64,000 nt of DNA from NCBI GenBank assembly GCA_964017195.1, contig OZ024889.1:53228711-53292710 (forward strand). The letters are read 5' to 3'. The position numbers and the translations under genes are program-made. Source of the stretch: Siderastrea radians (Eukaryota; Cnidaria; Anthozoa; Scleractinia; Rhizangiidae). Positions 2,469 through 16,899 of the stretch are shown piece after piece. Each line of letters begins with the position of its first letter. Position 1 is the stretch's first letter. The notes below the pieces were generated by a model. It searched no databases. It was given only the letters and a program-made list of their open reading frames with translations, and had not been told where the DNA came from.

Positions 2469-2474
2469 TAGTCT

Positions 2475-2503: not shown

Positions 2504-2559
2504 TAAGTTTTTTAATTGTTTTTCTAACGCGTTAGACAGTTCTTTTTGTCTTGAAAACC

Positions 2560-2588: not shown

Positions 2589-2627
2589 CAGATTGTTATG
2601 TAATATTAGATGAACTTGTATTTGAAG

Positions 2628-2692
2628 TAAAGTTTATCGGTAAAGTTTATTGGTGAAGTTTGTCGGTAAAGTTTATCGGTGAAGTTTGTTAT
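2628..2692 (+). repeat. 13 bp tandem repeat, five units
   Basis: Five in-phase units of the form t(a/g)aagttt(a/g)t(c/t)gg run from the end of the enhancer region to just before the 3' end of the fibre gene. They may be spacer or a regulatory array. Confidence 0.85.
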
Positions 2693-2737
2693 TTCTTAGA
2701 AAAGTAGACTTGTGCTATATAATAAATGAAAAAATGT

Positions 2738-4423
2738 TTATGGCACTCTATATTCAATCAACAGTAACAGTTCCACATTTTTTATAACCGAAGCCAATTC
2801 CACACCCATATGACCAAACGCTAGTACTACATTGATATTTATTGTCTGTGATTTAGTTGATTGGGTTGAAGTGTAAGTGATTGATTGAGTTAAATGGTCA
2901 CTGTGTTTTACTTTTAAAGAAATAGGTGTATATCGTCTTTTGACTTTGAAATAGAGCACTGTTATAGTTAATATGTGGCTATGATTTGGAATAATTATTT
3001 TATCACAACCATTCAATAAAAATGTGTTCCCATTTTTTGTATTCAAAATCCCATTTATGTAATGAACGGAACCACTCAAATGGTGTCCGTTTAAAGATAA
3101 ATCTGTTTCCATCACCAATTTCCCATTCTCAATTACAAAAGCGGTGTCATAGACACTTGGGTCAACGTTTGAAATTGTTTCTTTTACACCATAAACAATT
3201 AGATGCCCAATTGTTAAAAGTGACGGAAAAGTAACTGTACCGTATAGATCGAGATAAATAAATTGTGGAGGTGAGCTACCCCATCGGTGAAAATTGATAA
3301 CTGTTTTGGTATAGTTTTCGAATGTTTTTGTTGCATAATTAGAAATTGAAATCGTAGTGCCTTGCACTGCCACACTCAACTCACTCATTTCCGGCGGAAA
3401 CCATTCAACGACCAAAGTATAGTAACCGACTGAAAGTTTATAAAGGTTTAAACCGAGGCGTGATTGGTACTGGTTTGGTGAGCTTTTTTGAAACAGGAGT
3501 TTAAGTTGGTAAGCTTTTTTATTAATTTGATGTGGAGAATTGGAAAAATTAACAATACCCAAAACCTGAATATTTGATTCACTTGAAGATTCGTCGTCGT
3601 TTTCCATCAAGTATCTGAATACATCTTTTTTCCCCGAGCTAGTGATATGAGATTCATGAATTTTTTGAGTGACAAGATTTCTCAAATCTGTTATTTCATT
3701 TTCCATTAACTCAACATTAACTGCGGATTTCGAATTTTTTGAATCGGTTTGTAAGTTAACAATTTTATTGTTATTTAAATTTAAGTCTCCCGACATACTT
3801 GTTGTGCCATCAAGTTTGAGATAATTTTTTTGCGAGTTAGTGATTCTCTGAGTGATATATTCTACAGTAGCAACGTCTTTTTGGCTTACTGGAAATTTGA
3901 CATTGGTGATCGCATTATTTTTCATATCAATAGTAGTGTCTTTATCTATTTTTCCGGAAAGCTGATTATCAACATACTTTTTATTCACTCCATGATCTAA
4001 ATTGATTGGGTCTTTGATATTTGTTATGAAATGGTTGTTCATGTCTAAAGATTGTAGCATGGACCCACCTTCTTTTTTACTCAAGAATATATTCCGGGCT
4101 GCATTATAAGAGATGGCTTTATTCGTGTTTCCATGAATTGGGTACGGCTGTGGTTGTAAAATTAGGTCTCCGTTCATAGTTGCTCCTGTCTTTTTTACAA
4201 ACTGAGTTGTATCCGCACTTGGAATCTTAGCTATTTCACTGTCTAACTGACTTTTTGTAACCACATCATTATTATTGGTTCCTTGTTTTACATTCACTAA
4301 TTTTTTATTCTGCATATCATAATCATTATTAGCATCTAATTTAAATCCAATACCAGGTAAACCTCTGAGGCCTCTCGAATTCATGAAATGATTGAAATTC
4401 AATACTCCATTATAAAAACTCAT
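2738..4423 (-). CDS. Fibre-like protein with phage-tail-type repeats
   Basis: A 561-residue protein. Near the N-terminus there are only about three Gly-X-Y triplets (GLRGLPGIG). Roughly residues 35-235 hold four degenerate repeats of the form (L/I)D(M/L)xNxxIxNVxxP...A.xxYVDxxI, the pattern seen in bacteriophage tail fibres. The C-terminal half lacks a recognised domain but is strongly conserved with the protein at 25076-26851, except for the last ~110 residues. It is most likely a trimeric attachment fibre projecting from the capsid. The start lies 11 bp downstream of the ATPase stop codon, so the two may share a transcript from the divergent promoter at 5080-5131. The role is inferred; no homologue of known function was recognised. 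Confidence 0.8.
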   Translation of the reverse strand: MSFYNGVLNFNHFMNSRGLRGLPGIGFKLDANNDYDMQNKKLVNVKQGTNNNDVVTKSQLDSEIAKIPSADTTQFVKKTGATMNGDLILQPQPYPIHGNTNKAISYNAARNIFLSKKEGGSMLQSLDMNNHFITNIKDPINLDHGVNKKYVDNQLSGKIDKDTTIDMKNNAITNVKFPVSQKDVATVEYITQRITNSQKNYLKLDGTTSMSGDLNLNNNKIVNLQTDSKNSKSAVNVELMENEITDLRNLVTQKIHESHITSSGKKDVFRYLMENDDESSSESNIQVLGIVNFSNSPHQINKKAYQLKLLFQKSSPNQYQSRLGLNLYKLSVGYYTLVVEWFPPEMSELSVAVQGTTISISNYATKTFENYTKTVINFHRWGSSPPQFIYLDLYGTVTFPSLLTIGHLIVYGVKETISNVDPSVYDTAFVIENGKLVMETDLSLNGHHLSGSVHYINGILNTKNGNTFLLNGCDKIIIPNHSHILTITVLYFKVKRRYTPISLKVKHSDHLTQSITYTSTQSTKSQTININVVLAFGHMGVELASVIKNVELLLLIEYRVP

Positions 4424-4434
4424 TTATTAAATAT

Positions 4435-5079
4435 TCAGATTATTTCAGTAAAATTTTTTGCATTAAATTTTCTCGGCTTGTCAACATATAAAAAAGTATA
4501 CGGTTCATTTGTTGCCAAGAGATAGTCATCTTTGTCAACGTTCAATTCTTGACATATCATTCTTTGTTCGTTCTTGCTCGGAAAATCATAAATGCAGTGA
4601 TGAGAACAGTTCAATCTGATGGTTTTATCTGTATTGTAAAAAGACTGAGAAAGATATATACAGCTGCAATTTTTATTCCTCGAGTTTGTGAAATAGTTTC
4701 GTATTTCTCGATCATTTTTGGGTCCGGTGTTGAGGTAATCATCGAAAATGATCAATTTTTGGTTTCCATCGACCATTTCATCAAGAGGAATTATCTCACC
4801 GTTGCTCCCTTCAATGATATTATAACCATATTTTTTCGAAAGAGGCTCAAATTCTTTCAACAAATGCTGATACTTGTTTTGTTGCAAGTTTTTTGCGTAC
4901 AGATGAATCTTATCATAAAATAACAGTGGTTTTTTTATCATGTGAAGTAAAAGATTGGTTTTACCACTTCCACTGGGAGCGCAGATTAACATTCTGAAGC
5001 ATCTATCCGGCATATAAGGATATAATTGGGTGAAATTACTGTCTTCATCACCTTTTACATCATAGTTTGGTATTTCCAT
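4435..5079 (-). CDS. FtsK/HerA-type genome packaging ATPase
   Basis: A 214-residue ATPase of the A32/FtsK-HerA type that Polintons and related viruses use to pump DNA into capsids. Walker A is APSGSGKTN at residues 34-42, and Walker B is LIIFDDY at about 109-115. An arginine-rich stretch (NSRNKNC) and the SQSF motif follow, as in the paralogue at 26851-27483, which aligns over its whole length. It starts at the ATG at 5077-5079, 52 bp from the oppositely oriented gene at 5132/5168. Confidence 0.95.
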   Translation of the reverse strand: MEIPNYDVKGDEDSNFTQLYPYMPDRCFRMLICAPSGSGKTNLLLHMIKKPLLFYDKIHLYAKNLQQNKYQHLLKEFEPLSKKYGYNIIEGSNGEIIPLDEMVDGNQKLIIFDDYLNTGPKNDREIRNYFTNSRNKNCSCIYLSQSFYNTDKTIRLNCSHHCIYDFPSKNEQRMICQELNVDKDDYLLATNEPYTFLYVDKPRKFNAKNFTEII

Positions 5080-5167
5080 TTATTGATTCACAACAGAATT
5101 TTTTTTCAAACAACTCGCATAGCAACACGCAATGCGAGTTGTTTCATATTTAATTGGAAGAAAAATA
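5080..5167. promoter_or_regulatory. Divergent promoter region with 13 bp palindrome arms
   Basis: This is the only gap between the leftward (ATPase, fibre) and rightward (capsid) gene blocks, so it should hold promoters for both. It contains a perfect inverted repeat, aaacaactcgcat (5108-5120) and its complement (5132-5144), separated by 11 bp. The ATG at 5132 is the first three bases of the right arm. That makes the in-frame ATG at 5168 the more likely start. Confidence 0.6.
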
Positions 5168-6154
5168 ATGTTTCGATTTAATAAAATGAGTTTGCTAAAG
5201 TGGAAAGAAATGGCCGAAAAAAGATCAAAAATTGGCCGAGATGTTAATACTGTCAGAGAAACGTTGAAACAAAAGAAAATAACCGATACAATGAGTGATG
5301 TCGAAGCGGAGAAGCTTTTTAAACCGATTACATCGGGTTTGAAGGAATTGACGCAACCTCAACCTTTGAAAAGACGATTGAGGAAAAAAGCACAAGTTCC
5401 AGATTATGGCATCAATTTAGAAGATGAAGTTCCGGATTACAATCTCGAAGATTTGTTTCATGAACCGGAAAATACCAAACAGCTTGTCCCAAAACCACCA
5501 TCTTATGATGATGTTCTGAAAGAGTTGGAAATGGGGGAAAAGAAAATATACATTGATCCTGAGTATATGCAACAACATGAAGATGAAGTCCCAGATTATG
5601 AGATTTTTGAAGAAGATAGAATAAATGAGACTTTAGATGAACTTGGATTGGCCAATTATGATGATATTGAAGCACAACTTGAAAGAGAAGATATGACAGA
5701 AAAAACAAGGCATTCTTTCCTATCGAAGAAAATAGAAAATGCAGTCATGAAAAGGCAGCAACTTCCAGGTTATAAAACACAAATTACAAAGCAGTTGAAC
5801 AAAGGTTTGATAAGCCAATCTGAAGCACAGTTGAGAAGAAAGGTTATCGACGACGCTCGAAAAGTTATCAACGATTATATCAATTTCAACAAAAATAAGT
5901 TAAAGAGTTTCAAAGGTTCTGGAATCAAAAGAAAAACAACAAAAGGAGGTGGAAAATCGGTCGCAGTTTTCATCAATCCTGAAGAAGCCATTAAAAAATT
6001 GGGATTGATTGTCGGATCGATTGATGCTGGTAATAATAGCATAGAACTCAGAAACACTGGTGTTGCTATTCTCGATATTTTGTTGAGAAATTTCATTATC
6101 AGCAAGGATAAATACAACAAAATTTACAAAAACTTTTTTCATTTGAATGAATAA
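5168..6154 (+). CDS. Conserved Polinton protein, acidic, unknown function
   Basis: A 328-residue protein from the ATG at 5168. An in-frame ATG at 5132 would add 12 residues but lies within a palindrome. The N-terminal part is charged, followed by several 'VPDY' motifs in an acidic stretch, then a basic GSGIKRK segment. The conserved C-terminus has the pattern LG.IVGSIDAGNNSIELRN...ILDIL. The same order and C-terminal motif (LGSIKAGNSSIKLKN) appear in the broken gene at 27510-28466, also directly upstream of the minor capsid gene. It is probably a virion or assembly protein, but the function is not known. The stop codon abuts the next ATG (TAA|ATG). Confidence 0.85.
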   Translation: MFRFNKMSLLKWKEMAEKRSKIGRDVNTVRETLKQKKITDTMSDVEAEKLFKPITSGLKELTQPQPLKRRLRKKAQVPDYGINLEDEVPDYNLEDLFHEPENTKQLVPKPPSYDDVLKELEMGEKKIYIDPEYMQQHEDEVPDYEIFEEDRINETLDELGLANYDDIEAQLEREDMTEKTRHSFLSKKIENAVMKRQQLPGYKTQITKQLNKGLISQSEAQLRRKVIDDARKVINDYINFNKNKLKSFKGSGIKRKTTKGGGKSVAVFINPEEAIKKLGLIVGSIDAGNNSIELRNTGVAILDILLRNFIISKDKYNKIYKNFFHLNE

Positions 6155-6919
6155 ATGAAGACGACATTGGTATTATCCTCTCACAACGTCAAGAAACAAA
6201 CAAAAAATAAGCCCAGCGATTTCACAATCAGATTTAATCAACCAATAATACTTGATCCAAACAGACAATATGAACTCGGTTTAGGTCGAATAATATCCAT
6301 GTCTTTCACATGGTTCAATATCACATCAGAGTTGAACAACCAAAAAATAAAATACTCTTCCGATGGTGGAAAAACTTGGAAAGATATAATCTTCCCACCG
6401 GGCACATGGAATTACGTCAGTTTCAATGATTTCATCAAGCAACAGACAAAAATAACAACTTCAAGCGCGACTACGTATCCAATAACATTGCAATTCAACA
6501 ACACGACTTTCAAAACAACAGTAAATCTCGCAACAAACTACCGGCTGGACCTGACAACATCGAATTTCGGCGATCTGATTGGTTTCAACAAACGAATTTT
6601 AACCAGTTCAAGTGATGGCGACTACACACCGAATCTCAGTCAAGATACAGAGATTTTGAATATACATTGTGATCTTATTTCGGAGAGTCTTGTTGATGAA
6701 CATGAAACGGATATTATTTACACCTTTGGAACAAATGATTTACAACCATCTTATGCTTTCACCAAAGAGCCATTGAGAGTTCAATATTACCCAGTTAATA
6801 AATATATGATACACGCCCTGCGGATATACATCACTGATGGAAAACGACGAATTATTGATTTGAACGACGCGGATACATCATTTTCTCTGATTTTGAGAGA
6901 AAAAAAAAATAACGGTTAA
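6155..6919 (+). CDS. Minor capsid (penton) protein, single jelly roll
   Basis: A 254-residue protein matching the Polinton minor capsid family. Its N-terminus reads (SH..K)...PSDFTIRFNQPI.L, followed by YELGLGRIISMSFTWFNI and the FGDLIGFNKRIL segment, all also present in the protein at 28471-29232. Its length fits a single jelly roll. In this family the protein forms the capsid vertices. The ATG begins immediately after the preceding stop codon. Confidence 0.9.
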   Translation: MKTTLVLSSHNVKKQTKNKPSDFTIRFNQPIILDPNRQYELGLGRIISMSFTWFNITSELNNQKIKYSSDGGKTWKDIIFPPGTWNYVSFNDFIKQQTKITTSSATTYPITLQFNNTTFKTTVNLATNYRLDLTTSNFGDLIGFNKRILTSSSDGDYTPNLSQDTEILNIHCDLISESLVDEHETDIIYTFGTNDLQPSYAFTKEPLRVQYYPVNKYMIHALRIYITDGKRRIIDLNDADTSFSLILREKKNNG

Positions 6920-6928
6920 TTATAAAAA

Positions 6929-7360
6929 ATGCTGTCATATCATTACGAAAGAATTTATCACCCAAGTCTTGGTAGATTTGTTTACAAACACAAAGGATCC
7001 GGTTTGATTGTGGACAATATTTTCAAACCGGTTAAAATGATTGTGAATAAAGTTTTGAAGCCAGTCGCCAAAAAAGCTTTGAAATCGGGGATAGAAAGTG
7101 CTGGCGACAAAATTGGTAAGAAAGTTGTTGAAAAAGTTGTTGAAAAATCTGGCCATCTTTTCATAAAAGACCTTCAGAAAAAAAATCCCAAAGCGACAAA
7201 GAAACAAAAAGGGAAAGATGTTGATGTAATATTGGACGAATTGGTTTCCGGAAAACAAATTCCAAAAGAAGAAGAAGATTACAACGTATTGTTGAATAGA
7301 ATGATTTCTGGAGAGGGGTATAAAATAAAAAAAAACAAAAAAAAAGTTTCATTGAAATAA
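6929..7360 (+). CDS. Small basic virion protein
   Basis: A 143-residue lysine-rich protein. The start has an aromatic stretch followed by YKHKGSGLI, then an amphipathic Lys/Val-rich helix-forming region (about residues 30-75). A truncated copy with the same YKHKGSG motif sits at 29261 in Polinton 2, again directly after the minor capsid gene. Residues 126-130 (ISGEG) fit the adenovirus-protease recognition pattern (M/I/L)XGX-G, so the basic tail may be cut off during maturation. It is likely a core or DNA-condensing protein, by inference from composition and position. Confidence 0.75.
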   Translation: MLSYHYERIYHPSLGRFVYKHKGSGLIVDNIFKPVKMIVNKVLKPVAKKALKSGIESAGDKIGKKVVEKVVEKSGHLFIKDLQKKNPKATKKQKGKDVDVILDELVSGKQIPKEEEDYNVLLNRMISGEGYKIKKNKKKVSLK

Positions 7361-8650
7361 ATGACTTTCAGAACAAGTGATAAAGTGCAGAGATATGAAA
7401 TGGTTAGATTCTCTCTTGATAATATTATTGAACAACCCGGAAACAATAATTATCAAAAGAAAACAGGATATAAATTCACAATAACGGACAGATCCACTCT
7501 TTTCGATTATTTCAACGGGTATTTTGAGGTGACAAAAGAGCTTCAAAAGAAAGCCGATGGATCGGGTTATGCAGCGGCCGATCGAATTTCAATGATCAAT
7601 GGGTCACATTCTCTCATCAGACATATGGTCATCAAATCTGCCGGTAAAATAGTTTATGATAGTGATAACATTCACAGAGTTGTAAATGTCAAAAATTTGC
7701 TGGAATACGGCGATGATTTTAGCAGATCGGTCGCTAAAAATAGTTTTTGGTATCTTGACACTGAAAATTCAACAGCGAATACTAATTCAGGTTTTGAACA
7801 AAGACGACTTTTAACTCAGGCGAAACAGAACAATGGCGGCGGCGGACCGAGAAGCGTGAATGAGATCATTCCATTGAATAGGTATAGTTTCTTTGAGGAA
7901 TTGGAAGACAAAATGCTCCCTCCAATGCAGCTCACTTTCGAACTGGACTTGAATGATGACGATGAATTGATTCACAAAGCGGCCGGTGCAGATGATGGAC
8001 GAGTTGTCGTCAATCGATTTTATCTTTGGCTTCCAAAAATAGTTCCTAAAGATAGTGTGTACAGTGAATTCGTGGAAGATTTTCTCAAACCAACCAAATG
8101 GATGTATATGAAAGACATGTATATTCAGAGTGCGAATACAAGAGCTGTCCAAAACATGTTTCAAATTAGTCCGGCCATCGACAATGTTGAACATGTATTC
8201 ATTTATCTTCAGAGAACCAATGGTCCGAACAATGAGGAATCTGAAAGGACCCCCTTCATTTTTGATACTTTCAAGCTGAATGCGGCCGATACCAATAGCT
8301 CTCTTGCATCGTGTCGTTTGGAGTATGGAAACAGTACTTTTTATCCTGAATTGGAGTATGATGCAGATTCGAAATCGAGAATCTTCAACGATTTAATGTC
8401 TTATGCTTTCAGAAAGAATAATCTGAACACAGGAACGCAGTTGAACATCCACAATTTCACATCCATTTACGGTCTTGTTTATTTCGATCTGACTTATCAA
8501 AAAGAGTCTGTCACTCGGGATCCAAAACAACTGATTTTGAACTACAGATTGAATGTGGCACCGACTGCCGATGTGAGAGCTCATGCCATTGTATTTTACA
8601 AAAATGAGATTATTGTCAACAAGGTTGGAAATGAACTTATGATTGTCTGA
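7361..8650 (+). CDS. Major capsid protein, double jelly roll
   Basis: A 429-residue protein of the Polinton major capsid family, which forms trimeric pseudo-hexagonal capsomers. Supporting features are its length, position after the minor capsid gene, and family-type segments such as NGSHSLIRHMVIKSAGK, LPPMQLTFELDLN and the C-terminal RLNVAP..DVRAHAIVFYKNE. It starts at the ATG overlapping the previous gene's end (TAA|ATG). Polinton 2 has lost this gene. Confidence 0.92.
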   Translation: MTFRTSDKVQRYEMVRFSLDNIIEQPGNNNYQKKTGYKFTITDRSTLFDYFNGYFEVTKELQKKADGSGYAAADRISMINGSHSLIRHMVIKSAGKIVYDSDNIHRVVNVKNLLEYGDDFSRSVAKNSFWYLDTENSTANTNSGFEQRRLLTQAKQNNGGGGPRSVNEIIPLNRYSFFEELEDKMLPPMQLTFELDLNDDDELIHKAAGADDGRVVVNRFYLWLPKIVPKDSVYSEFVEDFLKPTKWMYMKDMYIQSANTRAVQNMFQISPAIDNVEHVFIYLQRTNGPNNEESERTPFIFDTFKLNAADTNSSLASCRLEYGNSTFYPELEYDADSKSRIFNDLMSYAFRKNNLNTGTQLNIHNFTSIYGLVYFDLTYQKESVTRDPKQLILNYRLNVAPTADVRAHAIVFYKNEIIVNKVGNELMIV

Positions 8651-8666
8651 TTCGAAAATTTCGTGA

Positions 8667-8696
8667 TTTTTTTTTATTTCGTTGAAATAAAAAAAA
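8667..8696 (+). promoter_or_regulatory. Hairpin directly before start codon, copy 1
   Basis: A T-rich arm ending atttc (8667-8680), loop gtt, and complementary gaaat plus A run (8684-8696) give a ~13 bp stem ending one base before the ATG at 8698. The same structure precedes the paralogue at 9059. It could be a 3'-end signal for the capsid transcript or a translation element. Confidence 0.55.
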
Positions 8697-8697
8697 G

Positions 8698-9006
8698 ATG
8701 CCTCAAATCCATAAAATAAATGTAACACTTTCTGAGTCTCAGAAAATACAAATGAATCAAGCTTTTTTCAAACGTGGACCAATCACACTGAGGTTGAAAA
8801 ATGATGCCCTCAGCGGAAGTGATACTCTTCTTGTTCCTTCAACGATCTTTGAAAGGTTGGAAAAGAATCGCGCGATGAATAAAGGAATAGAAATAAAATT
8901 TCGTGAAATTAACTTTTTAATGCCGATGAGTGGTTCAGATTTTGATTCATTAATATCAATCAGTGAAACTTATGGAGTTTCAGTGGCAGAAGCACTGGGA
9001 TTTTAA
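8698..9006 (+). CDS. Short paralogue of the virion protein at 9059
   Basis: A 102-residue protein. Its first ~67 residues are about 75% identical to the start of the next gene (shared segment LRLKNDALSGSDTLLVPSTI). It then diverges and ends where the longer protein continues with its hydrophobic region. Upstream hairpin, spacing and coding start are all duplicated, so this is a tandem duplication with loss of the C-terminal part. It keeps a good open frame, so it may be functional, perhaps as a dominant partner of the longer form. No function can be assigned. Confidence 0.75.
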   Translation: MPQIHKINVTLSESQKIQMNQAFFKRGPITLRLKNDALSGSDTLLVPSTIFERLEKNRAMNKGIEIKFREINFLMPMSGSDFDSLISISETYGVSVAEALGF

Positions 9007-9030
9007 ACAAGGTTGGAAAATTTCATGAAT

Positions 9031-9057
9031 TTATTTTATTTCGTTGAAATAAAATAA
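9031..9057 (+). promoter_or_regulatory. Hairpin directly before start codon, copy 2
   Basis: A perfect 12 bp stem, ttattttatttc (9031-9042) with gaaataaaataa (9046-9057) and loop gtt, ends one base before the ATG at 9059. It duplicates the structure at 8667-8696. The T/A compositions differ but pairing is kept, which is consistent with selection on the structure. Confidence 0.6.
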
Positions 9058-9058
9058 G

Positions 9059-9814
9059 ATGTCTCAACTTTATGAAATAAATGTAACACTTTCTGAGAAT
9101 CAGAAAAAGAAACTGAGTAAAGCTTTTCACGACCGTGAAACAATCACACTGAGGTTGAAAAATGATGCCCTCAGCGGAAGTGATACTCTTCTTGTTCCTT
9201 CAACGATCGTTAAAAGGTTGGAAAAGAATCGCGCGATGAATAAAGGAATGGAAATAAAACTGGTCAAAACGAACATTAGAAAGCAGGTCGGTGGTTCACT
9301 TTTGAGTTCAATCTTGTCACTCGGTCGAACTTTTGGACCGACATTGGCAAAAACACTGGGATTGTCGGCTCTCGCCGGTGTTGCTTCCGAAGGGGCATCT
9401 CAAGTGGTCAAAAAGATATCCGGCGGTTCACAAACTGGCGGTTTTCTCATTCCAAATTCTAAAATAAATCAACTCGTTGCAAATAAACATCTTTTGAGTG
9501 AAAAACAGAAAAGAGATATTATCAATGCCATTCAAACCGGTTCCGGTGTACATATAAAACCCACAAAAAAACAAACTGGTGGTTTTCTCGGTACCCTTCT
9601 TGCGTCGATCGGTGTTCCACTCGCTCTTGAAGCTTTCAAAAAGATGGTGGGTGGATCGGCTCCTAGAATGGGAGTATATCAACCACCACCTCCATTTTAT
9701 GGAACATGGGAAGAAAACTCAGGTGGAGGAAAAAAAAAAAAGTTGGGGGATGGGTTGCTTCTAGGGAAAAACAGTCCATTCAATGGGATACCACTGTTGG
9801 GAACAATTCTTTGA
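9059..9814 (+). CDS. Virion precursor with hydrophobic segments (pVI-like)
   Basis: A 251-residue protein. Residues 1-70 form a polar domain shared with the gene at 8698. Two small-residue-rich amphipathic or hydrophobic segments follow (about 78-120 and 174-198), each bracketed by double-glycine motifs. ISGG-S (120-124) and MVGG-S (196-200) fit the adenovirus protease pattern (M/I/L)XGG-X. A proline run, a tyrosine motif and a Gly/Lys-rich region lead to the C-terminus. The arrangement is reminiscent of adenovirus pVI-type precursors cut to free membrane-active peptides. The protease gene follows in the -1 frame and overlaps its end. The role is inferred from layout. Confidence 0.75.
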   Translation: MSQLYEINVTLSENQKKKLSKAFHDRETITLRLKNDALSGSDTLLVPSTIVKRLEKNRAMNKGMEIKLVKTNIRKQVGGSLLSSILSLGRTFGPTLAKTLGLSALAGVASEGASQVVKKISGGSQTGGFLIPNSKINQLVANKHLLSEKQKRDIINAIQTGSGVHIKPTKKQTGGFLGTLLASIGVPLALEAFKKMVGGSAPRMGVYQPPPPFYGTWEENSGGGKKKKLGDGLLLGKNSPFNGIPLLGTIL

Positions 9815-10275
9815 AATTCCACAAAAATGTGCCATTGAGCAATTACGATTTGATTAAATGGTGTCGCCATCTTAAAATACCAATTGACAAAGGTGGCGTC
9901 TTGTCAAGAGACCAAACTGTTCCACACAACCACAAAATGGCGTTTTTCATTTACAATCTTGAGCCGTCATACATGAGTGGAAGTCATTGGGTTGCAACAT
10001 TTGTTGAGAATGGAAAAATCGATTATTTCGACAGCTTTGGGTTACTGCCATTTCAAGAAATTGTGGACCATGCAAAGAAAAAAAATCTCACTTTGGTTCA
10101 TCAAAATGATCAGATACAAGATTTGAATACAACGACTTGTGGATACTTTTGTTTATACTTTTTGAATGAGATGAATAAAGGTTCGTCATATTTTGACCTT
10201 TTGCAAGTTTTTGATGTTCATGATACCACGAAAAATGAGAGATTCATTGAAAGATATTTTGAAAAAATTTTATGA
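9706..10275 (+). CDS. Adenain-like cysteine protease
   Basis: The cysteine protease that matures virion proteins in Polintons and adenoviruses. From the only in-frame ATG (9706) it has 189 residues. The catalytic residues appear as His94 (GSHWVATF), Asp109 (YFDSFG) and Cys145 (TTTCGYF), with the usual spacing. The first ~36 codons overlap the preceding gene in the -1 frame, and the conserved protease domain begins only near residue 42. The start is therefore uncertain. It could be internal initiation at 9706, or a -1 frameshift on the 12-A run at 9730-9741, where A AAA AAG is in phase. Confidence 0.9.
   Translation: MGRKLRWRKKKKVGGWVASREKQSIQWDTTVGNNSLKFHKNVPLSNYDLIKWCRHLKIPIDKGGVLSRDQTVPHNHKMAFFIYNLEPSYMSGSHWVATFVENGKIDYFDSFGLLPFQEIVDHAKKKNLTLVHQNDQIQDLNTTTCGYFCLYFLNEMNKGSSYFDLLQVFDVHDTTKNERFIERYFEKIL
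9730..9742 (+). promoter_or_regulatory. Possible -1 frameshift site (12-A run)
   Basis: A run of 12 A followed by G places A AAA AAG (9736-9742) in phase with the zero frame of the gene at 9059. The -1 frame leads into the protease. No strong downstream stem was found, only a weak 6 bp pairing (gatggg with tccatt), so support is weaker than at the two downstream sites. Confidence 0.35.
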
Positions 10276-10286
10276 CCTTATTGTAA

Positions 10287-10439
10287 ATGAAAACGTATTG
10301 CGTGAAACAAAGAAAAGAAACTGAGTGTGTTGAGCCTTCGGGCTATAAATATGCAAAAAACGGTCGACTTATGTTCTTTTGCACATGTGCTGAATGTGGA
10401 ATAACTAAAACTAGATTCGTGAAACAAACGGGAAACTAA
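10287..10439 (+). CDS. Small zinc-ribbon protein (DUF5679-like)
   Basis: A 50-residue protein with four main cysteines, one near the N-terminus (TYC), one at about residue 14 (TEC), and CTCAEC near residues 32-37, around an aromatic/basic core ending in TKTRFV. It fits the small zinc-ribbon family found in many virus-like elements. It probably binds nucleic acid or structures the core. The ATG is at 10287, 11 bp after the protease stop. Its last two sense codons form a slippery site, and the PLA2 frame opens in -1. It may therefore be the N-terminal module of a larger polyprotein. Confidence 0.75.
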   Translation: MKTYCVKQRKETECVEPSGYKYAKNGRLMFFCTCAECGITKTRFVKQTGN

Positions 10440-10462
10440 TTGGCCCGTCTGAAGGGGCGGGC
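10430..10462 (+). promoter_or_regulatory. Predicted -1 ribosomal frameshift signal 1
   Basis: The slippery heptamer G GGA AAC (10430-10436) is in phase with the zinc-ribbon frame and is followed at once by its TAA stop. After a 6 nt spacer (10437-10442) comes an 8 bp GC-rich hairpin: gcccgtct (10443-10450), loop gaag, gggcgggc (10455-10462), with two G.U pairs. Slipping one base back enters the PLA2 frame, which is open from the heptamer onward. GGGAAAC is a known functional heptamer in luteovirus-type frameshift signals. Confidence 0.8.
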
Positions 10463-11086
10463 ATTTTGGATACAATAGCATCCACTGGTACTGATATGTT
10501 AATTCAACATGGTATTCCTTGGCTTGGAAAAAAAGCAGTTGAAATGGGAAGATATTATGGATCAGAAGCCTTGAGAAACCCAAAACTGCAGAAAAAGGCT
10601 CTCGATTATGCTTTGGAAAGAGCAACTCCTTTCATTCAAAAAACAGGATCAGAGATGCTTGATCAATTATCCACTAAAATCAGACCAAATAGAAAGTATA
10701 AAACCGACAGAAAGGATTTGGATGGAGGTGGGCTTGACATTCATAAAATGATTGGAAAACTCCCTAAACCAAAAGGGGGTTGGACTCTTCCAGGGCATCG
10801 ATACACAGGCCCCTACAATGACCTTGAAAATCAGGTGAGATGGGATCCAAAAACAGGAGAGATACTCGAGATATATGACAAACCAACGGGTAAGACCGAT
10901 GCCATAGCGATGCAGCATGATGTTGATTATTCAGTTTGTAAAGATGATAAAAAATGTAAGAACAAAGCCGACAGGAAAATGGTCAAAGCGTTGGATTCTG
11001 TTCCTTATAATGAGAGACAATGGGGTCATTGGATGGCACGAAATATTATTGATAAAAAGCAAAAACTTGGTCTTGGTTTAAACTGA
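10436..11086 (+). CDS. Parvovirus-type phospholipase A2, -1 frame
   Basis: A secreted-type PLA2 domain like that of parvovirus VP1, which breaches the endosomal membrane during entry. It has the calcium-loop pattern LPGHRYTGPYN and the catalytic pair in MQHDVDYS (H-D), followed by a cysteine-bearing helix. An N-terminal ~85-residue head is followed by LDGG-G, which fits the adenain cleavage pattern, so the catalytic domain could be released. No ATG starts the frame; the first one is about 11 residues into the conserved head, at 10496. The frame is continuous with the slippery site at 10430, which suggests expression as a fusion to the zinc-ribbon protein. Its own end (TTA AAC TGA) is a second slippery site. 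Confidence 0.9.
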   Translation, partial: LIGPSEGAGILDTIASTGTDMLIQHGIPWLGKKAVEMGRYYGSEALRNPKLQKKALDYALERATPFIQKTGSEMLDQLSTKIRPNRKYKTDRKDLDGGGLDIHKMIGKLPKPKGGWTLPGHRYTGPYNDLENQVRWDPKTGEILEIYDKPTGKTDAIAMQHDVDYSVCKDDKKCKNKADRKMVKALDSVPYNERQWGHWMARNIIDKKQKLGLGLN

Positions 11087-11170
11087 AAAGGCCGCCGGGT
11101 GAAGAAAACTGGCAAGAAAAATTAGCTGATGAGCTTCATAAACCGATAAAGCGTAACTTCACCCGGCGGC
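11077..11170 (+). promoter_or_regulatory. Predicted -1 ribosomal frameshift signal 2
   Basis: U UUA AAC (11077-11083), the heptamer used by coronaviruses, lies in phase with the PLA2 frame. The zero-frame stop TGA follows directly. After a 7 nt spacer, a perfect 14 bp GC-rich stem forms between gccgccgggtgaag (11091-11104) and cttcacccggcggc (11157-11170), with a 52 nt loop. Slipping back one base enters exactly the integrase frame. The loop offers a possible 5 bp pseudoknot pairing (aatta with taatt at 11174-11178), which is not convincing by itself. Confidence 0.88.
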
Positions 11171-12036
11171 GGGTAATTGTAAACCATATTGACGAGACAT
11201 GGTGTTCAGATATCGTTGAGATGCAAAAATTCAGTCGATGGAACGCTGGCTACAGATATCTTCTCATGGTACTCGATGTGTTTAGTAAATATGGTTGGAT
11301 CGTTCCATTAAAAGATAAAAAGGGTGAAACCGTTATGAATGCATTCAAAACAATATTCAAAGAGGGGCGTAAACCACAATATCTTTGGACTGATAAAGGG
11401 AAAGAGTATTACAACAAACATGTTAAGGAACTACTTGATAAGAATAAAATAACCTTGTACTCAACTGAGAATGAGGAAAAGTCGTCAGTTTGCGAAAGAT
11501 GGAACCGTACAATCAAAACCAAAATGTGGAAAAAGTTTACTGTTCAGGGGAATACACAGTATCTTGACATGCTACCAAAATTAGTGAAACAGTATAACAA
11601 CACCAGACATAGCTCTATCAAAATGATGCCCATAGAAGCCAGTAAAAAGAAGAATGAAGGAGTTGTTTACTTTAATCTATATGGTGATATGAAGCCAATC
11701 TCAACAAAGTCAAAATACAGAGTCGGTGATAAGGTCAGAATATCTAAGTACAAACGTCCTGTCTTTGACAAAGGATACACAGCCAATTGGACAGAAGAAG
11801 TTTTCACAGTCGACAAGATACAATACACCAATCCGATCACTTACAGACTCAAAGATCTCAGTGGTGAGGAGATATCAGGTTCTTTTTATGAACAGGAGAT
11901 GCAGAAGGCTATTCAAGACGTTTACCGTATTGAGAAAGTGATTCGACGAGACGCTCGAAAAGGTAAAGCTTTGGTGAAGTGGAGCGGTTACCCAGAAAAA
12001 TTCAATTCCTGGGTAGATATTAACAATCTGATGTAA
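11083..12036 (+). CDS. Retrovirus-like integrase with chromodomain, -1 frame
   Basis: The DDE integrase that inserts the linear element into host DNA. The catalytic residues are visible as Asp in WCSDIVEM, Asp in LWTDKGKEYY and Glu in SSVCERWNRT, with about 33 residues between the last two. A C-terminal chromodomain ends in VKWSGYPEKFNSWVDINNL. The first ATG in the frame (11221) lies just after the first catalytic Asp, so a protein begun there would be inactive. The frame is open upstream to the slippery site at 11077 and includes the usual family N-terminus (basic FTRRRVIVN). It must therefore be made by frameshift from the PLA2 frame, or by an unseen splice. Confidence 0.93.
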   Translation: MKRPPGEENWQEKLADELHKPIKRNFTRRRVIVNHIDETWCSDIVEMQKFSRWNAGYRYLLMVLDVFSKYGWIVPLKDKKGETVMNAFKTIFKEGRKPQYLWTDKGKEYYNKHVKELLDKNKITLYSTENEEKSSVCERWNRTIKTKMWKKFTVQGNTQYLDMLPKLVKQYNNTRHSSIKMMPIEASKKKNEGVVYFNLYGDMKPISTKSKYRVGDKVRISKYKRPVFDKGYTANWTEEVFTVDKIQYTNPITYRLKDLSGEEISGSFYEQEMQKAIQDVYRIEKVIRRDARKGKALVKWSGYPEKFNSWVDINNLM

Positions 12037-12070
12037 AAATAAATTTAAAAAATTCTTGTATATATAAAAA
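12036..12070 (+). promoter_or_regulatory. TATA-like promoter motif before SAP-like gene
   Basis: AT-rich lead followed by TCTTGTATATATAAAA (12054-12069), 8 bases before the ATG at 12078. The same motif occurs twice before the polymerase gene (12423-12438 and 12456-12471), with the same aaataaatttaaaa lead. Repetition only upstream of these two genes suggests a shared, perhaps early, promoter. Confidence 0.55.
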
Positions 12071-12077
12071 AGAAAAA

Positions 12078-12389
12078 ATGACGAAAATTTTAACTCTTAA
12101 AGAAATTCGAAAAATGGCTGTAGAAAAAAATATCAAACATTCAAACAAACTCTCAAAAGCAGAGCTGGTAAAAGCGTTAAATCTTGATGAAGAAGTGTAT
12201 AAAAAACCAAGTAACGCAATGGAGGTGTTGATTACCAATGTTGACACACAGGTTGTCACAAAATGTAAAAGCATCTATCAGTGTTCAAAAGTGTTGGGTA
12301 AAAGGTATGGTTCGGTTCATTATTTCGTAAATTGTGGAAATGCGTTTGTGGATAAGGATGGAAATAAAGTCAGATTGTCTTTTGCTTAA
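12078..12389 (+). CDS. SAP-like DNA-binding protein
   Basis: A 103-residue protein. Residues ~5-40 fit a SAP/LEM-like helix pair (LTLKEIRKMAVEKNI... LSKAELVKAL). The C-terminal half (SIYQCSKVLGKRYGSVHYFV) resembles a NUMOD1-type helix-turn-helix. The polymerase N-terminus just downstream has a similar Lys/Leu SAP-like segment. It is likely a DNA-binding accessory to replication or integration, but this rests on local pattern only. Confidence 0.65.
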   Translation: MTKILTLKEIRKMAVEKNIKHSNKLSKAELVKALNLDEEVYKKPSNAMEVLITNVDTQVVTKCKSIYQCSKVLGKRYGSVHYFVNCGNAFVDKDGNKVRLSFA

Positions 12390-12391
12390 AC

Positions 12392-12422
12392 TTTTTCATT
12401 TCATGAAACGTGAAATGAAAAA
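12392..12422 (+). terminator. Hairpin between SAP-like and polymerase genes
   Basis: A perfect 12 bp stem, tttttcatttca (12392-12403) with tgaaatgaaaaa (12411-12422) and a 7 nt loop, starts 3 bases after the SAP-like stop. It may mark a transcript end or, like the hairpins at 8667 and 9031, belong to the leader of the next gene. Confidence 0.5.
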
Positions 12423-12471
12423 TCTTGTATATATAAAAATAAATTTAAAAAAAATTCTTGTATATATAAAA
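12423..12471 (+). promoter_or_regulatory. Duplicated TATA-like promoter of polymerase gene
   Basis: TCTTGTATATATAAAA occurs at 12423-12438 and 12456-12471. The second copy touches the ATG at 12472. The first is 34-49 bases upstream, the right distance for a TATA box with a short leader. Confidence 0.55.
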
Positions 12472-15400
12472 ATGGATTTACAAACAGAAATGAACAAAGC
12501 TAGTTTGAAGAAACTTAGCAAATCAAAACTTATCAAATTGCTTTTGAATCAAAAGAAAAGTAAGCCTGAAATCATCATAGCAGATGATACCAAACCAGTT
12601 CAAACACAAAGGACTTATAAACCAAGACCACCTGTTCCAACACCTCGTACGAGTGCCAAACAGGTGGTTAAAAAATATGAAGAAAACATCATTCTTCCAC
12701 CTCCAGAATTCAGGGATAATTACAAACCAGTTCCAACACAAAGAACTTATAAACCAAGACCACCTGTTCCAACACCAAGACAAAGACAACCCCCTAGCTT
12801 ATTTGGTGAAGTACCTGAGATTAACGTTCCCATCCTCAAACCAACAGTTGTGACAACAACACTCAAAAAGCTACCAAATCTAATTCAAAAAACGACTAAA
12901 AACGTTATTAATTGGGGAGAGTGGTTGAAAAATGCAGATGAAGCAATTGAAGCAATTAATGCAACAAAAAATGAGACAAAAAATGAGATAATGAATATGT
13001 TCACACAAACTGAAAAGCAAACTGAACCAACTTTCACACAGAAAGAACAAGCCCTGCGAGGGTTTACAAGATCATATGAAATTGGTCTCATAAACAGACA
13101 AGACCCATTAATTCAACTTCAGAACACCCGTTCAGTGATTAAGAACAATCTATTGAAGATTCTGAATGAGATGAAAGGTCTCAAATTCAATGAAACGTTG
13201 AAGATTATGTTTGAAAAACAGAATGGAGACAAGTTGATTGAAAAGGAAGCTTATTTCAATGCAAAGCCACAAACAGTAACAAATGATGTAGATATTGATA
13301 ACTTGTTGCAGATAACACAACAACAGATTGTAAATATGATTCAGCAATGGATTTCAGAAGGATCAGCATGGACAATTAAATCGGTTGATGGTCATTTCAT
13401 CAATGTTGTAAAGTACAGACCACTCAGAGGTTCTTCATATATTCCATTACCCAAAGAGCTTCAGAACTCAGCTAAAGGGATTATAAACATGAAAAATAAT
13501 GACGATGAATGTTTTCGTTGGTGTCATATTCGTCAGCTCTTGCCACAGAATAAAGATCCACAGAGAATAAAAGAGTGTGATAAAAAATATGTAGAAAAAT
13601 TGGATTACTCGGGAATCGAGTTTCCCGTTTCTGTAAAACAATACAACAAAATAGAGAAACAGAATAATATTCGTGTTAATGTCTTCGGTTATGAAGAAAA
13701 GCAACCGTATGTGATTTACGTTTCAAAAGAAAAGTTTAACTCTTGTTTGAATCTACTCTTAATAACCAGGGGAGGGGTGAAACATTATTGTTTAATAAAG
13801 GATTTCAATAAATTTATGCACAGTCAAACGAATCACAATGGAAGAAAGCATTTCTGTATGTACTGTCTTCAATGTTTAAGCTCGAAAGAGCATCTTGAAA
13901 AACACAAAGTTGATTGTATTGAAATTAATGGGAAACAAGCCATTAAAATGCCAGAACCTGGATCAAAAATTGCATTCAGAAATTATCGTAAACAGTTACC
14001 AGCACCTTTCGTGATTTATGCTGATTTTGAAGCCATCACCGAAAAAGTTGATGAGAAAGCTCCGCAAAAATCCTACACCGAACAATATCAAAAACATACG
14101 GCTTGTGGATATGGTTATAAAGTTGTTTGCTGTTATGACGATAAATTTTCAAAACCAATTAAAATTTACAGAGGAGAAATGGCCATTCACAAGTTCATGA
14201 AGGATATGTTGTCTGAAGTTGAATACTGTCAAGAGGTTGTGAAAACCCACTTCACAAAACCTCTCGAAATGACAGACGAGGATGAGGAAAGTTTCCAAAG
14301 AGCTGAAGAATGTCACATCTGCAAGAAACCTTATGACACAAGTGATGTTGGAGTAAGAAATGTTGGAGTAAGAAATGTTAAAAATGTTAGAATAGGAAAT
14401 GTTAGAGTAAGAGATCACTGTCATATCACCGGCAAATATAGAGGCTCAGCACATGCAATTTGTAATCTAAATTTTCAATTGACTAATAAGATACCTGTGG
14501 TGTTTCACAATCTCAAGGGGTATGACAGTCACTTTATAATGCAAGAGATTGGTAATATTGTGAAAAATAATGTGTATTATGATAAAGAAGGAAAGGAACA
14601 TGAGATGAAAATAAATGTCATTCCATGTAACATGGAGAAATACTTAGCCTTCATGTTGGGTCAAAACCTTGTGTTCATCGACAGCTTTCAATTCATGAGC
14701 TCATCATTGAGTAATTTGGTGAATAATCTTCCTGCTGAAGCGTTCAAACACACGGGACAAGTATTTCAAGGTGAACAATTGAGTTTGATGACAAAGAAAG
14801 GTGTCTATCCTTATGACTATATGAATAGTTTTGAAAAGTTTGAGGACAGCAGGTTGCCGAAGAAAGAAGATTTTTTCAGTATTATGAATAATGAACATAT
14901 CACAGACGAAGAGTATCAACATGCACAGAATGTTTGGAATGAATTTGGTCTATCATCAATGGGAGAGTATCACGATTTATATCTCAAATCGGATATTTTA
15001 TTGTTGACTGATGTTTTTGAAAATTTCCGCAAAGCATGTCAACAATACTATGGATTGGATCCTGCTCATTATTTCACATCACCCGGTCTGAGTTGGGATG
15101 CAATGTTGAAAAGGACAGAAACTGAATTGGAGTTGATTAGTGATGTTGATATGTTTCAATTCATTGAAAAAGGTATGCGTGGTGGAATCAGTTACATCGC
15201 CAATCGATATGGAAAGGCAAATAACAAGTATATGGTTCATCACAATCCAAAGGATGCATCAAAATACATCATGTATTTGGATGCAAATAATCTTTATGGT
15301 TGGGCGATGATTCAATATCTTCCAACAGGTGGGTTTGAATGGTTGACTGAAGAAGAGGTGGATTTATCCAAGTATAATGATGAGTCTGAAAAAGGATTGG

Positions 15401-16527
15401 TATTGGAGGTCGATTTGGAATATCCAGAGGAGTTACATGATCTCCACAACGACTATCCTCTGGCAGCAGAAAAAATCAAAGTAACTGAAGATATGTTGTC
15501 ACCTTATTCTCGAGAAATTGCTGGAAAATTTAAAGTAAAGGTTGGACTGGTTGAAAAGTTGGTGCCGACGTTGTCAAATAAAGAGAAATATGTTTTGCAT
15601 TATCGCAACTTGCAACTCTATATGTCTTTGGGGTTGAAACTAACAAAGATTCATAGAGCTCTCGAATTCAATCAGAGTCCATGGTTGAAACCTTACATCG
15701 ATTTTAACACAAAAAAGAGAGCAAAGGCAAAGAACTCTTTTGAAAAGGATTTTTTCAAGTTGATGAACAATTCAGTGTTCGGAAAGACTATGGAAAATCT
15801 GAGAAAACGACAAGACATCAAACTTGTTACTGATGAAGAAACACTATTAAGGTGGACCAGTAAACCGAGTTTCATAAACAACAAAATATTTAATGAGGAT
15901 TTAGTTGCCGTTCATAAAATTAAACTAACTTTGAAATTGAACAGACCGGCATATGTTGGAATGTGCATCCTAGACTTATCAAAAACATTGATGTATGATT
16001 TTCATTACAATTACATCAAAAGTCAGTATGGTGGCAAAGCTCGGTTGCTGTTCACAGATACTGACAGTCTGACCTATGAAATTGAAGCAGATGATGTTTA
16101 TCAAGATTTTTGGAAAGACAAACATCTATTCGATAACAGTGATTATCCAAAGAATAGTCCGTTTTTTGATAACTCAAACAAGAAAGTTATTGGGAAATTC
16201 AAGGACGAAGCAGCAGGAATCCCAATTGTGGAGTTTGTTGGTTTGAGGTCAAAAATGTATTCTTACATGAAAGACAATAAACAGGGTAGTCGCACAGCAA
16301 AGGGAATAAAAAAGAATGTGATAAAACAACAGTTGCGACACGATAATTATAAGGACGTTCTTTTCAACAAAAAGCAGATGCGTCATATAATGAGACTAAT
16401 TAAAAGTGAAAAACATCAAATTGGTAGCTATGTGGTGAATAAAATATCACTCAGCTGCTTCGACGATAAGAGATATATTCATAAAAATGGCGTGACAAGT
16501 TACGCTTACGGTCATAATAGACTTTGA
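12472..16527 (+). CDS. Protein-primed DNA polymerase B
   Basis: A 1351-residue family B polymerase from the ATG at 12472. Open frame continues upstream, but it overlaps the SAP-like gene and the promoter repeats. Order: SAP-like N-terminus; two copies of a proline-rich repeat (YKPRPPVPTPR); C2H2 finger (CMYC...EKHKVDC, ~460); exonuclease motif (VIYADFEA, ~510); a second zinc site (CHICKK ... DHCH, ~614-650) split by a VGVRN repeat; NLKGYDSHFIM (~680); polymerase motifs A (YLDANNLYGWAM, ~933), B (KLMNNSVFGKTMEN, ~1096) and C (TDTDSL, ~1195). The last ~37 codons lie inside the right terminal repeat. It replicates the element from protein-primed ends. Confidence 0.96.
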   Translation: MDLQTEMNKASLKKLSKSKLIKLLLNQKKSKPEIIIADDTKPVQTQRTYKPRPPVPTPRTSAKQVVKKYEENIILPPPEFRDNYKPVPTQRTYKPRPPVPTPRQRQPPSLFGEVPEINVPILKPTVVTTTLKKLPNLIQKTTKNVINWGEWLKNADEAIEAINATKNETKNEIMNMFTQTEKQTEPTFTQKEQALRGFTRSYEIGLINRQDPLIQLQNTRSVIKNNLLKILNEMKGLKFNETLKIMFEKQNGDKLIEKEAYFNAKPQTVTNDVDIDNLLQITQQQIVNMIQQWISEGSAWTIKSVDGHFINVVKYRPLRGSSYIPLPKELQNSAKGIINMKNNDDECFRWCHIRQLLPQNKDPQRIKECDKKYVEKLDYSGIEFPVSVKQYNKIEKQNNIRVNVFGYEEKQPYVIYVSKEKFNSCLNLLLITRGGVKHYCLIKDFNKFMHSQTNHNGRKHFCMYCLQCLSSKEHLEKHKVDCIEINGKQAIKMPEPGSKIAFRNYRKQLPAPFVIYADFEAITEKVDEKAPQKSYTEQYQKHTACGYGYKVVCCYDDKFSKPIKIYRGEMAIHKFMKDMLSEVEYCQEVVKTHFTKPLEMTDEDEESFQRAEECHICKKPYDTSDVGVRNVGVRNVKNVRIGNVRVRDHCHITGKYRGSAHAICNLNFQLTNKIPVVFHNLKGYDSHFIMQEIGNIVKNNVYYDKEGKEHEMKINVIPCNMEKYLAFMLGQNLVFIDSFQFMSSSLSNLVNNLPAEAFKHTGQVFQGEQLSLMTKKGVYPYDYMNSFEKFEDSRLPKKEDFFSIMNNEHITDEEYQHAQNVWNEFGLSSMGEYHDLYLKSDILLLTDVFENFRKACQQYYGLDPAHYFTSPGLSWDAMLKRTETELELISDVDMFQFIEKGMRGGISYIANRYGKANNKYMVHHNPKDASKYIMYLDANNLYGWAMIQYLPTGGFEWLTEEEVDLSKYNDESEKGLVLEVDLEYPEELHDLHNDYPLAAEKIKVTEDMLSPYSREIAGKFKVKVGLVEKLVPTLSNKEKYVLHYRNLQLYMSLGLKLTKIHRALEFNQSPWLKPYIDFNTKKRAKAKNSFEKDFFKLMNNSVFGKTMENLRKRQDIKLVTDEETLLRWTSKPSFINNKIFNEDLVAVHKIKLTLKLNRPAYVGMCILDLSKTLMYDFHYNYIKSQYGGKARLLFTDTDSLTYEIEADDVYQDFWKDKHLFDNSDYPKNSPFFDNSNKKVIGKFKDEAAGIPIVEFVGLRSKMYSYMKDNKQGSRTAKGIKKNVIKQQLRHDNYKDVLFNKKQMRHIMRLIKSEKHQIGSYVVNKISLSCFDDKRYIHKNGVTSYAYGHNRL
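14347..14415 (+). repeat. 15 bp coding minisatellite in polymerase zinc site
   Basis: Units of 15, 15, 9, 15 and 15 bp encode VGVRN, VGVRN, VKN, VRIGN, VRVRD between the CHIC and DHCH zinc-ligand pairs. All are multiples of three, so the frame is kept. It looks like a recent length expansion of a linker. Confidence 0.85.
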
Positions 16528-16899
16528 AATTTAACAAAAAAGTTTTCTGTTAAATTTGACTAGTGCGCTCGTATTCTCAGCTAAAAAGATTCGTCAAAGT
16601 TTCACAAAAGATTCGCCGCTGCGCTGGTAGCCCAATTCGTCGCAAAAATTCGTCGCTGCGCTGGTAGTCCTATTTGCCAAGGTTTTTCACTGCATTGGTA
16701 GCCCAATTCGCTAAAAGATTCACCAAAGATTGACCGCTGCGCTGGTAGCCCTCGAATTTAACAAAAGATTTGACTAGTGCGCTCGTATTCTCACTGAAAA
16801 CTTTTCTGTTCGAATTTAGCAGAAAAGTTTACCAAAAAATTCTCCAAAAATTCTCCAAAGATTGACCGCTGCGCTGGTAGTCCCATTTGCTAAACTACT
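16415..16899 (-). repeat. Right terminal inverted repeat of Polinton 1 (485 bp)
   Basis: Reverse complement of 1984-2468 with one mismatch. It includes the 3' end of the polymerase gene (stop at 16525-16527), which is unusual because terminal repeats are generally non-coding. Confidence 0.96.

Follow-up and report, generated by a model that had tools for sequence, protein, structure and literature searches.

Two −1 junctions in a three-frame cassette

The window analysed here, a 64,000-nucleotide stretch of contig OZ024889.1, contains a Polinton/adintovirus-like element in which a cassette at positions 10287-12036 holds, in order, a zinc ribbon, a parvovirus-type phospholipase A2 (PLA2) and an integrase, each in an open reading frame (ORF) of its own. 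The original prediction held that two consecutive −1 frameshift signals, each with correct phase, stop, spacer and stem, line up these three modules in the manner of the Gag-Pro-Pol of some retroviruses. The features at the locus are as follows:

10287..10439, + strand: zinc-ribbon ORF (DUF5679) of 50 amino acids, frame 0 of the cassette; PF18930 at 27 bits, at the cut-off of 27
10415..11086, + strand: PLA2 open frame, parvovirus-type, −1 of the zinc ribbon; PF08398 at 40.7 bits against a cut-off of 23.9
11056..12036, + strand: integrase open frame, −1 of PLA2, with rve core and chromodomain; PF00665 at 45.5 bits, PF00385 at 29.7 bits
10430..10436, + strand: shift site 1, GGGAAAC, in phase as G_GGA_AAC; TAA at 10437-10439 directly after
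10443..10462, + strand: hairpin after shift site 1 (arms 10443-10450/10455-10462), spacer 6 nt; 8 pairs, 6 of them G-C, loop of 4
11077..11083, + strand: shift site 2, TTTAAAC, in phase as T_TTA_AAC; TGA at 11084-11086 directly after
11091..11170, + strand: perfect 14-bp stem after shift site 2 (arms 11091-11104/11157-11170), spacer 7 nt, loop 52 nt

Both downstream genes sit in the −1 frame, with overlaps of 25 nt (zinc ribbon/PLA2) and 31 nt (PLA2/integrase), and the two upstream ORFs end ACG GGA AAC TAA and GGT TTA AAC TGA, respectively. The shift sites and the open frames can thus be read directly from the DNA. At junction 1 the hairpin arms are GCCCGTCT/GGGCGGGC, while at junction 2 the arm GCCGCCGGGTGAAG pairs perfectly with CTTCACCCGGCGGC. 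RNA structure is therefore present 5-9 nt 3' of the heptamer at both junctions, strong at junction 2 and near chance at junction 1, and with this reservation concerning the junction 1 hairpin both predicted signals were confirmed. Pseudoknots were sought at both sites and none stood out; an Rfam search of 10200-11400 returned no family at E up to 1.

The catalytic codons of the integrase are D 11209, D 11392 and E 11494. Retroviral integrases in the PDB have the second D and the E at corresponding positions; for the first D, the placement comes from a column that is invariant in the family alignment (W..D) and from a Pfam match beginning before it. The integrase frame, open from 11056, has no ATG before 11221, which is 3' of the codon for the first catalytic Asp; translation beginning at that ATG would give a product short of one catalytic residue of the three. 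Pfam gave no reverse transcriptase and no retroviral protease in the three cassette frames. A structure model of the zinc ribbon (predicted local distance difference test, pLDDT, 79) was all beta, and since Foldseek gave no match at 0.001 the fold was not confirmed. For PLA2, neither the structure model (mean pLDDT 44) nor the single PDB match of its profile (E 0.25) was used.

We next asked how often such signals would arise by chance. Given the element's own codons, the probability that the last two codons of an ORF hold a heptamer in phase is 0.0078 per ORF and 6e-5 for both, which bears out the claim that two such heptamers at the ends of successive genes are improbable. Among 14 ORFs of the element that were examined, a shift heptamer closes just two, those of the zinc ribbon and PLA2; within ORFs, heptamers in phase are no rarity (42 in 4476 codons). 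The stem at junction 2 was equalled in none of 2000 dinucleotide shuffles, at no other place in the element, and in none of 3000 synonymous recodings in which the integrase protein was fixed and codons were redrawn from element usage; the z-score of the fold was −4.96. Its 3' arm requires the codons ACC CGG CGG CGG, whose usage product is 3.8e-6, CGG accounting for 3% of the element's arginine codons. Such a stem lies well outside what chance would produce.

The junctions in relatives

Relatives were analysed as the 120 listed out of 226 for the zinc ribbon, out of 2647 for PLA2 and out of 5510 for the integrase; 32 of the listed zinc-ribbon relatives were set aside as another architecture, leaving 88. 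Among the listed integrase relatives, most are unnamed; those with a name come from stony corals (Oculina patagonica, Stylophora pistillata and 'Stylophora coral adintovirus'), which makes a coral host probable.

Gly-Asn, encoded by the last two codons of the zinc-ribbon ORF in the window, occurs in 60 of the 88 zinc-ribbon relatives (one of them, P0351, doubtful), behind linkers that differ in length and sequence. Thirty-five of these stop directly after Gly-Asn and 25, P0351 among them, run on, mostly for ~10 residues; the pair is therefore kept regardless of the position of the stop. The remaining zinc-ribbon relatives end in Leu-Asn (6) or Lys-Asn (2), carry Gly-Lys-Leu/Gly-Lys-Ile in the same frame (3), or show none of these (17, including one of the set-aside architecture and two ending Glu-Asn). 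One class (P0272, P0283, P0285, P0294, P0305 and P0309) has the C-terminus ...INNLN, which would be compatible with TTTAAAC rather than GGGAAAC at junction 1, and most members of another (P0327-P0360) carry a GLLLGKNSPFxxIPVLGAIL-like peptide that in the window is terminal in the ORF at 9059-9814.

The PLA2 relatives bear on both junctions. At their C-termini, Leu-Asn or Lys-Asn was found in 110 of the 120 listed: Leu-Asn in 45 (37 stop there and 8 have a tail) and x-Lys-Asn in 65, none of which depends solely on the terminal GKKN of the protein; 10 have neither. The terminal KKN was considered as a second A-rich slip site and rejected, its codons being dictated by the overlapping W-Q-E-K-L of the integrase. 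A GKN in P0120 was matched at the wrong place and was not counted. Among PLA2 relatives that cross junction 1, Gly-Lys followed by Leu, Arg, Trp or Pro was present in 35, two of them in a single frame with the zinc ribbon, and the peptide between junction 1 and the PLA2 ATG is similar across relatives.

To relate the two frames, codons were sought for the −1-frame peptide such that the 0 frame would match the tail of the upstream protein. Templates were picked by best fit, and those for junction 1 all held Gly-Asn. The junction 1 sample consisted of 33 PLA2 relatives crossing it, P0104 having been dropped because its GK was matched at the wrong place. In 27 of the 33 the zinc-ribbon C-terminus was recovered at 10 or more of 13-14 residues, with several at 14/14; the six weaker cases reached 6-9, compared to 2-5 residues for the other frame and at most 8 for shuffled peptides. 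If the 0 frame reads Gly-Asn, the site is GGGAAAC or GGGAAAT, with C forced in 9 cases. At junction 2, the PLA2 C-terminus was recovered at 14 or more of 18 residues in 16 of the 24 integrase relatives that run upstream, the other frame giving 44-62%. The reconstructed sites of these 16 were AAAAAA(C/T) or TTTAAA(C/T) in 11 and AAAAAAA in 2, so that 13 of 16 held a canonical heptamer. As reconstructed from proteins, shift heptamers fit at both junctions in most usable relatives.

These fits also bear on whether the frames might be joined in the RNA, through removal of a small intron or slippage of the polymerase. Splicing would be available in the host, which is probably an animal, and the A-runs of some relatives could slip in transcription. 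An intron, however, would find no space in most usable relatives, where the 0-frame match extends as far as the heptamer and the −1 frame continues across it without a break. Neither TTTAAAC nor GGGAAAC is a long homopolymer, and the immediate stops and downstream stem are marks of ribosomal shifting. We regard joining on the RNA level as hardly credible.

Taken together, these findings indicate that the double −1 arrangement is real rather than accidental and, judging by the proteins of relatives, conserved. Absence of conserved heptamers from relatives, which the original prediction had named as telling against it, was not what we observed, as far as proteins can tell. Programmed tandem −1 frameshifting is, with high probability, the best explanation of the cassette, and the proposal that serial −1 shifts join its three modules is well supported by the sequence and its relatives; conservation of the shift sites suggests that they are used in translation.

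Alternative routes and possible processing of the predicted fusion protein

The 120 listed integrase relatives fall into several patterns: 24 run through the junction in −1, 23 are fused to PLA2 in a single protein, 40 possess a separate Met near the integrase start, 15 begin 3' of the first Asp and 18 have a Met in between, the gene calls in these last two groups being of little weight. In P0127 and P0157 the zinc ribbon, PLA2 and integrase all lie in one predicted protein, and zinc ribbon and PLA2 share a protein in several relatives (e.g. P0076, P0083, P0127 and P0157). Two fused cases, P0196 and P0238, are NCBI gene models that were possibly joined across introns. On a tree of 117 PLA2 relatives, which rests on few columns and leaves many forks open, the well supported branches require at least 3 changes for Leu-Asn-stop, at least 7 for x-Lys-Asn and at least 4 for fusion, and the Leu-Asn and Lys-Asn types interchange. 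Two fused relatives have PLA2 cores identical to that of an x-Lys-Asn relative over the tree columns (P0142 to P0016, and P0178 to P0013).

Single-frame versions, which the original prediction had held to tell against it, were thus found in part, in the form of relatives whose PLA2 and integrase make a single protein, which in two cases includes the zinc ribbon. Together with the P0142/P0016 and P0178/P0013 identities, which are what one-base insertions or deletions would give, they could suggest that the stops and frame breaks of the cassette arose by accident, through decay of this copy or an error in sequencing. We consider this scarcely plausible: the element is a young copy, as marked by its nearly perfect terminal repeats and intact target site duplication (see below), and the same frame breaks recur, with 37 of the 120 listed PLA2 clusters ending in Leu-Asn and a stop. 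Instead, we read the single fused proteins as a sign that the fused product is real, and not that the shift is an error. The picture, by analogy with the insertion sequence IS2, would be one of a product retained while the means of making it turns over.

Several observations weigh against tandem programmed shifting. No DNA of relatives was found, either in viral contigs (searched with the window integrase and with the PLA2 and integrase alignments) or in genome contigs (both alignments); the heptamers of relatives are therefore deduced from proteins. Some relatives, e.g. P0121, have P-S-S where the 5' arm of the 14-bp stem encodes P-P-G in the window. At junction 2, 3 of the 16 reconstructed sites are non-canonical (P0184, P0204 and P0219) and 8 of the 24 relatives gave no clear match, while Lys-Asn may be partly a consequence of the overlapping −1-frame Lys-Lys-Arg, which is kept in single-frame fusions too. 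A Met near the integrase start in 40 of 120 relatives implies that frameshifting is not the sole route in the family. At junction 1, P0046, P0083 and P0108 cross without GK, and the hairpin is near chance, being equalled in 57 of 2000 shuffles and 42 of 3000 synonymous recodings (z −1.39). Finally, the first ATG of the PLA2 frame 3' of shift site 1, at 10496, lies upstream of the whole PLA2 domain, which weakens the need for a shift there.

The last two of these points would suit a scheme in which junction 2 alone is programmed, with leaky scanning or re-initiation giving PLA2 a separate start at AUG 10496 and GGGAAAC being a by-product of overlapping codes. GKL is, moreover, also kept in P0076 and P0090, where zinc ribbon and PLA2 are in a single frame, which may mean that this peptide serves some separate purpose. 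We nevertheless find this scheme unlikely, since Gly-Asn in the 0 frame and Gly-Lys-(Leu, Arg, Trp or Pro) in the −1 frame are both kept and are joined by the two-frame fit, Gly-Asn persists even where the 0 frame passes the junction, the peptide from junction 1 to the ATG is alike across relatives, and several relatives make zinc ribbon and PLA2 as a single protein.

At junction 2, the corresponding alternative is that the integrase is initiated independently, at a non-AUG codon or after re-initiation, with TTTAAAC and the stem incidental. A CTG at 11083 lies in the integrase frame, and the relatives with a Met near the start suggest that separate initiation may work in the family. This alternative is very improbable for the window, where the first ATG of the frame lies beyond a catalytic Asp codon and a 14-bp stem that is not chance stands at shift spacing; the prevalence of Leu-Asn or Lys-Asn in PLA2 relatives (110 of 120) likewise argues against it.

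We also considered how the predicted fusion proteins might be processed. The adenain cleavage consensus is (M/I/L)xGG|x or (M/I/L)xGx|G. Two further features are relevant:

10718..10732, + strand: LDGGG, matching the adenain-type cleavage consensus, immediately ahead of the PLA2 core; place kept in most relatives
9706..10275, + strand: adenain-like protease ORF, candidate enzyme for the LDGG site; PF00770 at E 3.1e-4 and 20.9 bits, just under the cut-off of 21.3; HW and CGYFC motifs

Of 119 anchored relatives (120 in all, one unanchored), 98 have the consensus immediately N-terminal to the PLA2 core and 21 lack it. Variants with a residue other than Gly in fourth position mostly have Gly next, as the consensus asks (LDGAG in 12 and LDGRG in 2, versus one each of LDGRS, LDGFS and LNGRP). 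Since consensus matches per protein are not above those in shuffles, only the conserved place counts. The integrase frame of the window contains no match, and in 21 fused relatives none was found in the stretch linking PLA2 to integrase; release of free integrase is therefore not supported. Thus, the predicted release by the adenain-like protease would apply at the conserved site before PLA2, without support for a free integrase: PLA2, with or without attached integrase, may be freed from the zinc ribbon, while the integrase may stay joined to PLA2.

The protease ORF itself lies in −1 of the preceding ORF 9059-9814, with an overlap at 9706-9814 and a slip run at 9730-9741 that holds in-phase A_AAA_AAA at 9730 and 9733. 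A start codon of its own is available too, the ATG at 9706 (A at −3, G at +4). There may be a third −1 fusion here, like the Hexon-Adenain fusions suggested in PMC11071296.

We accordingly favour, in outline, tandem programmed shifting of the following form. The cassette would be one translation unit in three frames, with ribosomes starting at the zinc-ribbon AUG. Most would stop at TAA 10437, and a fraction would slip −1 on GGGAAAC into PLA2; most ribosomes in the PLA2 frame would in turn stop at TGA 11084, and a fraction, held by the 14-bp stem, would slip −1 on TTTAAAC into the integrase. This would yield three products, each less abundant than the one before: the zinc ribbon alone, its fusion with PLA2, and the full zinc ribbon-PLA2-integrase protein. 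The conserved site suggests cleavage before PLA2 by the element's adenain-like protease, and the analogy with Gag-Pro-Pol suggests that the integrase would be delivered in the virion.

The host element and comparison with known systems

The cassette is carried by the following element:

1984..16899, + strand: Polinton/adintovirus-like element with terminal inverted repeats (TIRs) and target site duplication (TSD)

The TIR arms are 485 bp (1984-2468 and 16415-16899) and complementary at 484 of 485 positions, the first 396 being perfect; the ends read AGTAGT...ACTACT, and a 6-bp TSD, GTTCGC, lies at 1978-1983 and 16900-16905. The near-identity of the TIRs and the intact TSD indicate a young copy. 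TIRs with AGT-type ends and a short TSD characterise Polintons/Mavericks, as does an rve integrase with a C-terminal chromodomain, for which both Pfam matches are above cut-off; the AGT-AGT end motif is known for these elements (PMC8097293).

The gene order on the + strand is protease-like ORF, zinc-ribbon ORF, PLA2 ORF and integrase. A packaging ATPase was sought, and ORF 4435-5079 matched a PHROGs terminase family (1.1e-11). Capsid proteins were likewise sought: ORF 7361-8650 had no match in Pfam or PHROGs, and PHROGs gave none for ORF 6155-6919. A 1349-aa reading at 12478-16524 had no match in PHROGs and none in the PDB at E up to 1, and Pfam gave none for the longer reading from 12334; the 1349-aa reading has a DTDS motif, a mark of family B, at residue 1194. 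Two neighbouring ORFs show a tandem duplication at 8698-9006 and 9059-9364, their first 102 residues being 59% identical and the DNA 79%. TTCTTGTATATATAA-like boxes occur at 12053-12067, 12422-12436 and 12455-12469, immediately 5' of the ORFs at 12078 and 12478, and are possibly shared promoters; none was found near the zinc-ribbon start, allowing up to 3 mismatches.

Direct repeats of ~94% identity (322-753 and 18180-18583, 17.8 kb apart) flank the element. The window also contains a second Polinton-like element at 21349-36483, probably older, whose inverted outer arms are imperfect (about 89-92%). It has relatives of only some of the genes, that of the polymerase as three separate matches, and tblastn (1e-3) found no zinc ribbon, PLA2 or integrase in it, which makes it unusable as a comparison for the cassette. 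A tandem array with a 64-bp unit lies at 53438-54172.

We found no description of a zinc ribbon-PLA2-integrase shift cassette in the Polinton/Maverick, adintovirus and frameshifting literature, a scope outside which the founding adintovirus paper (Starrett 2021) falls. The claim that tandem frameshifting had not been reported in Polintons therefore stands for the cassette, but shifting as such has been suggested for adintoviruses. If the proposed tandem shifting is true, it accounts for the production of a Polinton integrase that has no usable start codon, gives reason to look for integrase inside particles, and calls for a recoding rule in gene finders that split or shorten such genes. Serial shifts kept across a Polinton family would be a clear and testable case, with clusters of up to a few hundred sequences (P0001, 226; P0121, 164). 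Maverick particles have not been observed (PMC8097293).

The nearest precedent within the same virus group is the −1 shifting suggested, by KnotInFrame prediction only, for the adintovirus Penton and Hexon-Adenain genes in a preprint of the Buck group (PMC11071296). There too a slippery site lies near the 3' end of a virion gene, but the genes are others and the events single, and the available text of that source is silent on zinc ribbon-PLA2-integrase. Parvovirus-type PLA2 is known from Mavericks (PMC5803895, PMC3671162); in Sf Mavericks it is reported in a capsid-like ORF, CAP (PMC5803895), whereas here it lies between zinc ribbon and integrase.

A transposase made by a −1 shift offers a second parallel. 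Transposases of the IS3 family are of the rve type. In IS2 OrfA-OrfB, a member of that family, an A6G window gives a −1 shift, and an engineered one-base insertion (A7G) yields a single-frame enzyme (PMC3219604), a conversion like that which may have happened in some relatives of the cassette. IS2 differs in being bacterial and in having one shift, no PLA2 and no virion.

The closest likeness is to retroviruses. Two successive −1 shifts occur in primate D-type retroviruses and in human T-lymphotropic virus (HTLV) and bovine leukaemia virus (BLV), and GGGAAAC and TTTAAAC are heptamers known from gag-pro in simian retrovirus (SRV)/Mason-Pfizer monkey virus (MPMV) and from pro-pol in HTLV/BLV. 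Mouse mammary tumour virus (MMTV) requires two successive −1 events (PMC8310308). With Gag-Pro-Pol of the MMTV type the cassette shares serial −1 shifts at ORF ends and the order zinc protein, enzyme, integrase. It differs in that the host is a double-stranded DNA Polinton, the cassette is without reverse transcriptase, the middle enzyme is a phospholipase A2 and not a protease, and no capsid domain was matched in the first ORF; since neither a reverse transcriptase nor a retroviral protease was matched, the cassette would work like Gag-Pro-Pol without being a member of it. It is conceivable, though we hold it somewhat short of probable, that a double-stranded DNA virus lineage independently reached the retroviral answer, a −1 ladder by which a zinc-binding virion protein carries a limited amount of membrane-breaching phospholipase and still less integrase into the particle, with heptamers, single-frame fusion and separate initiation having been swapped several times.

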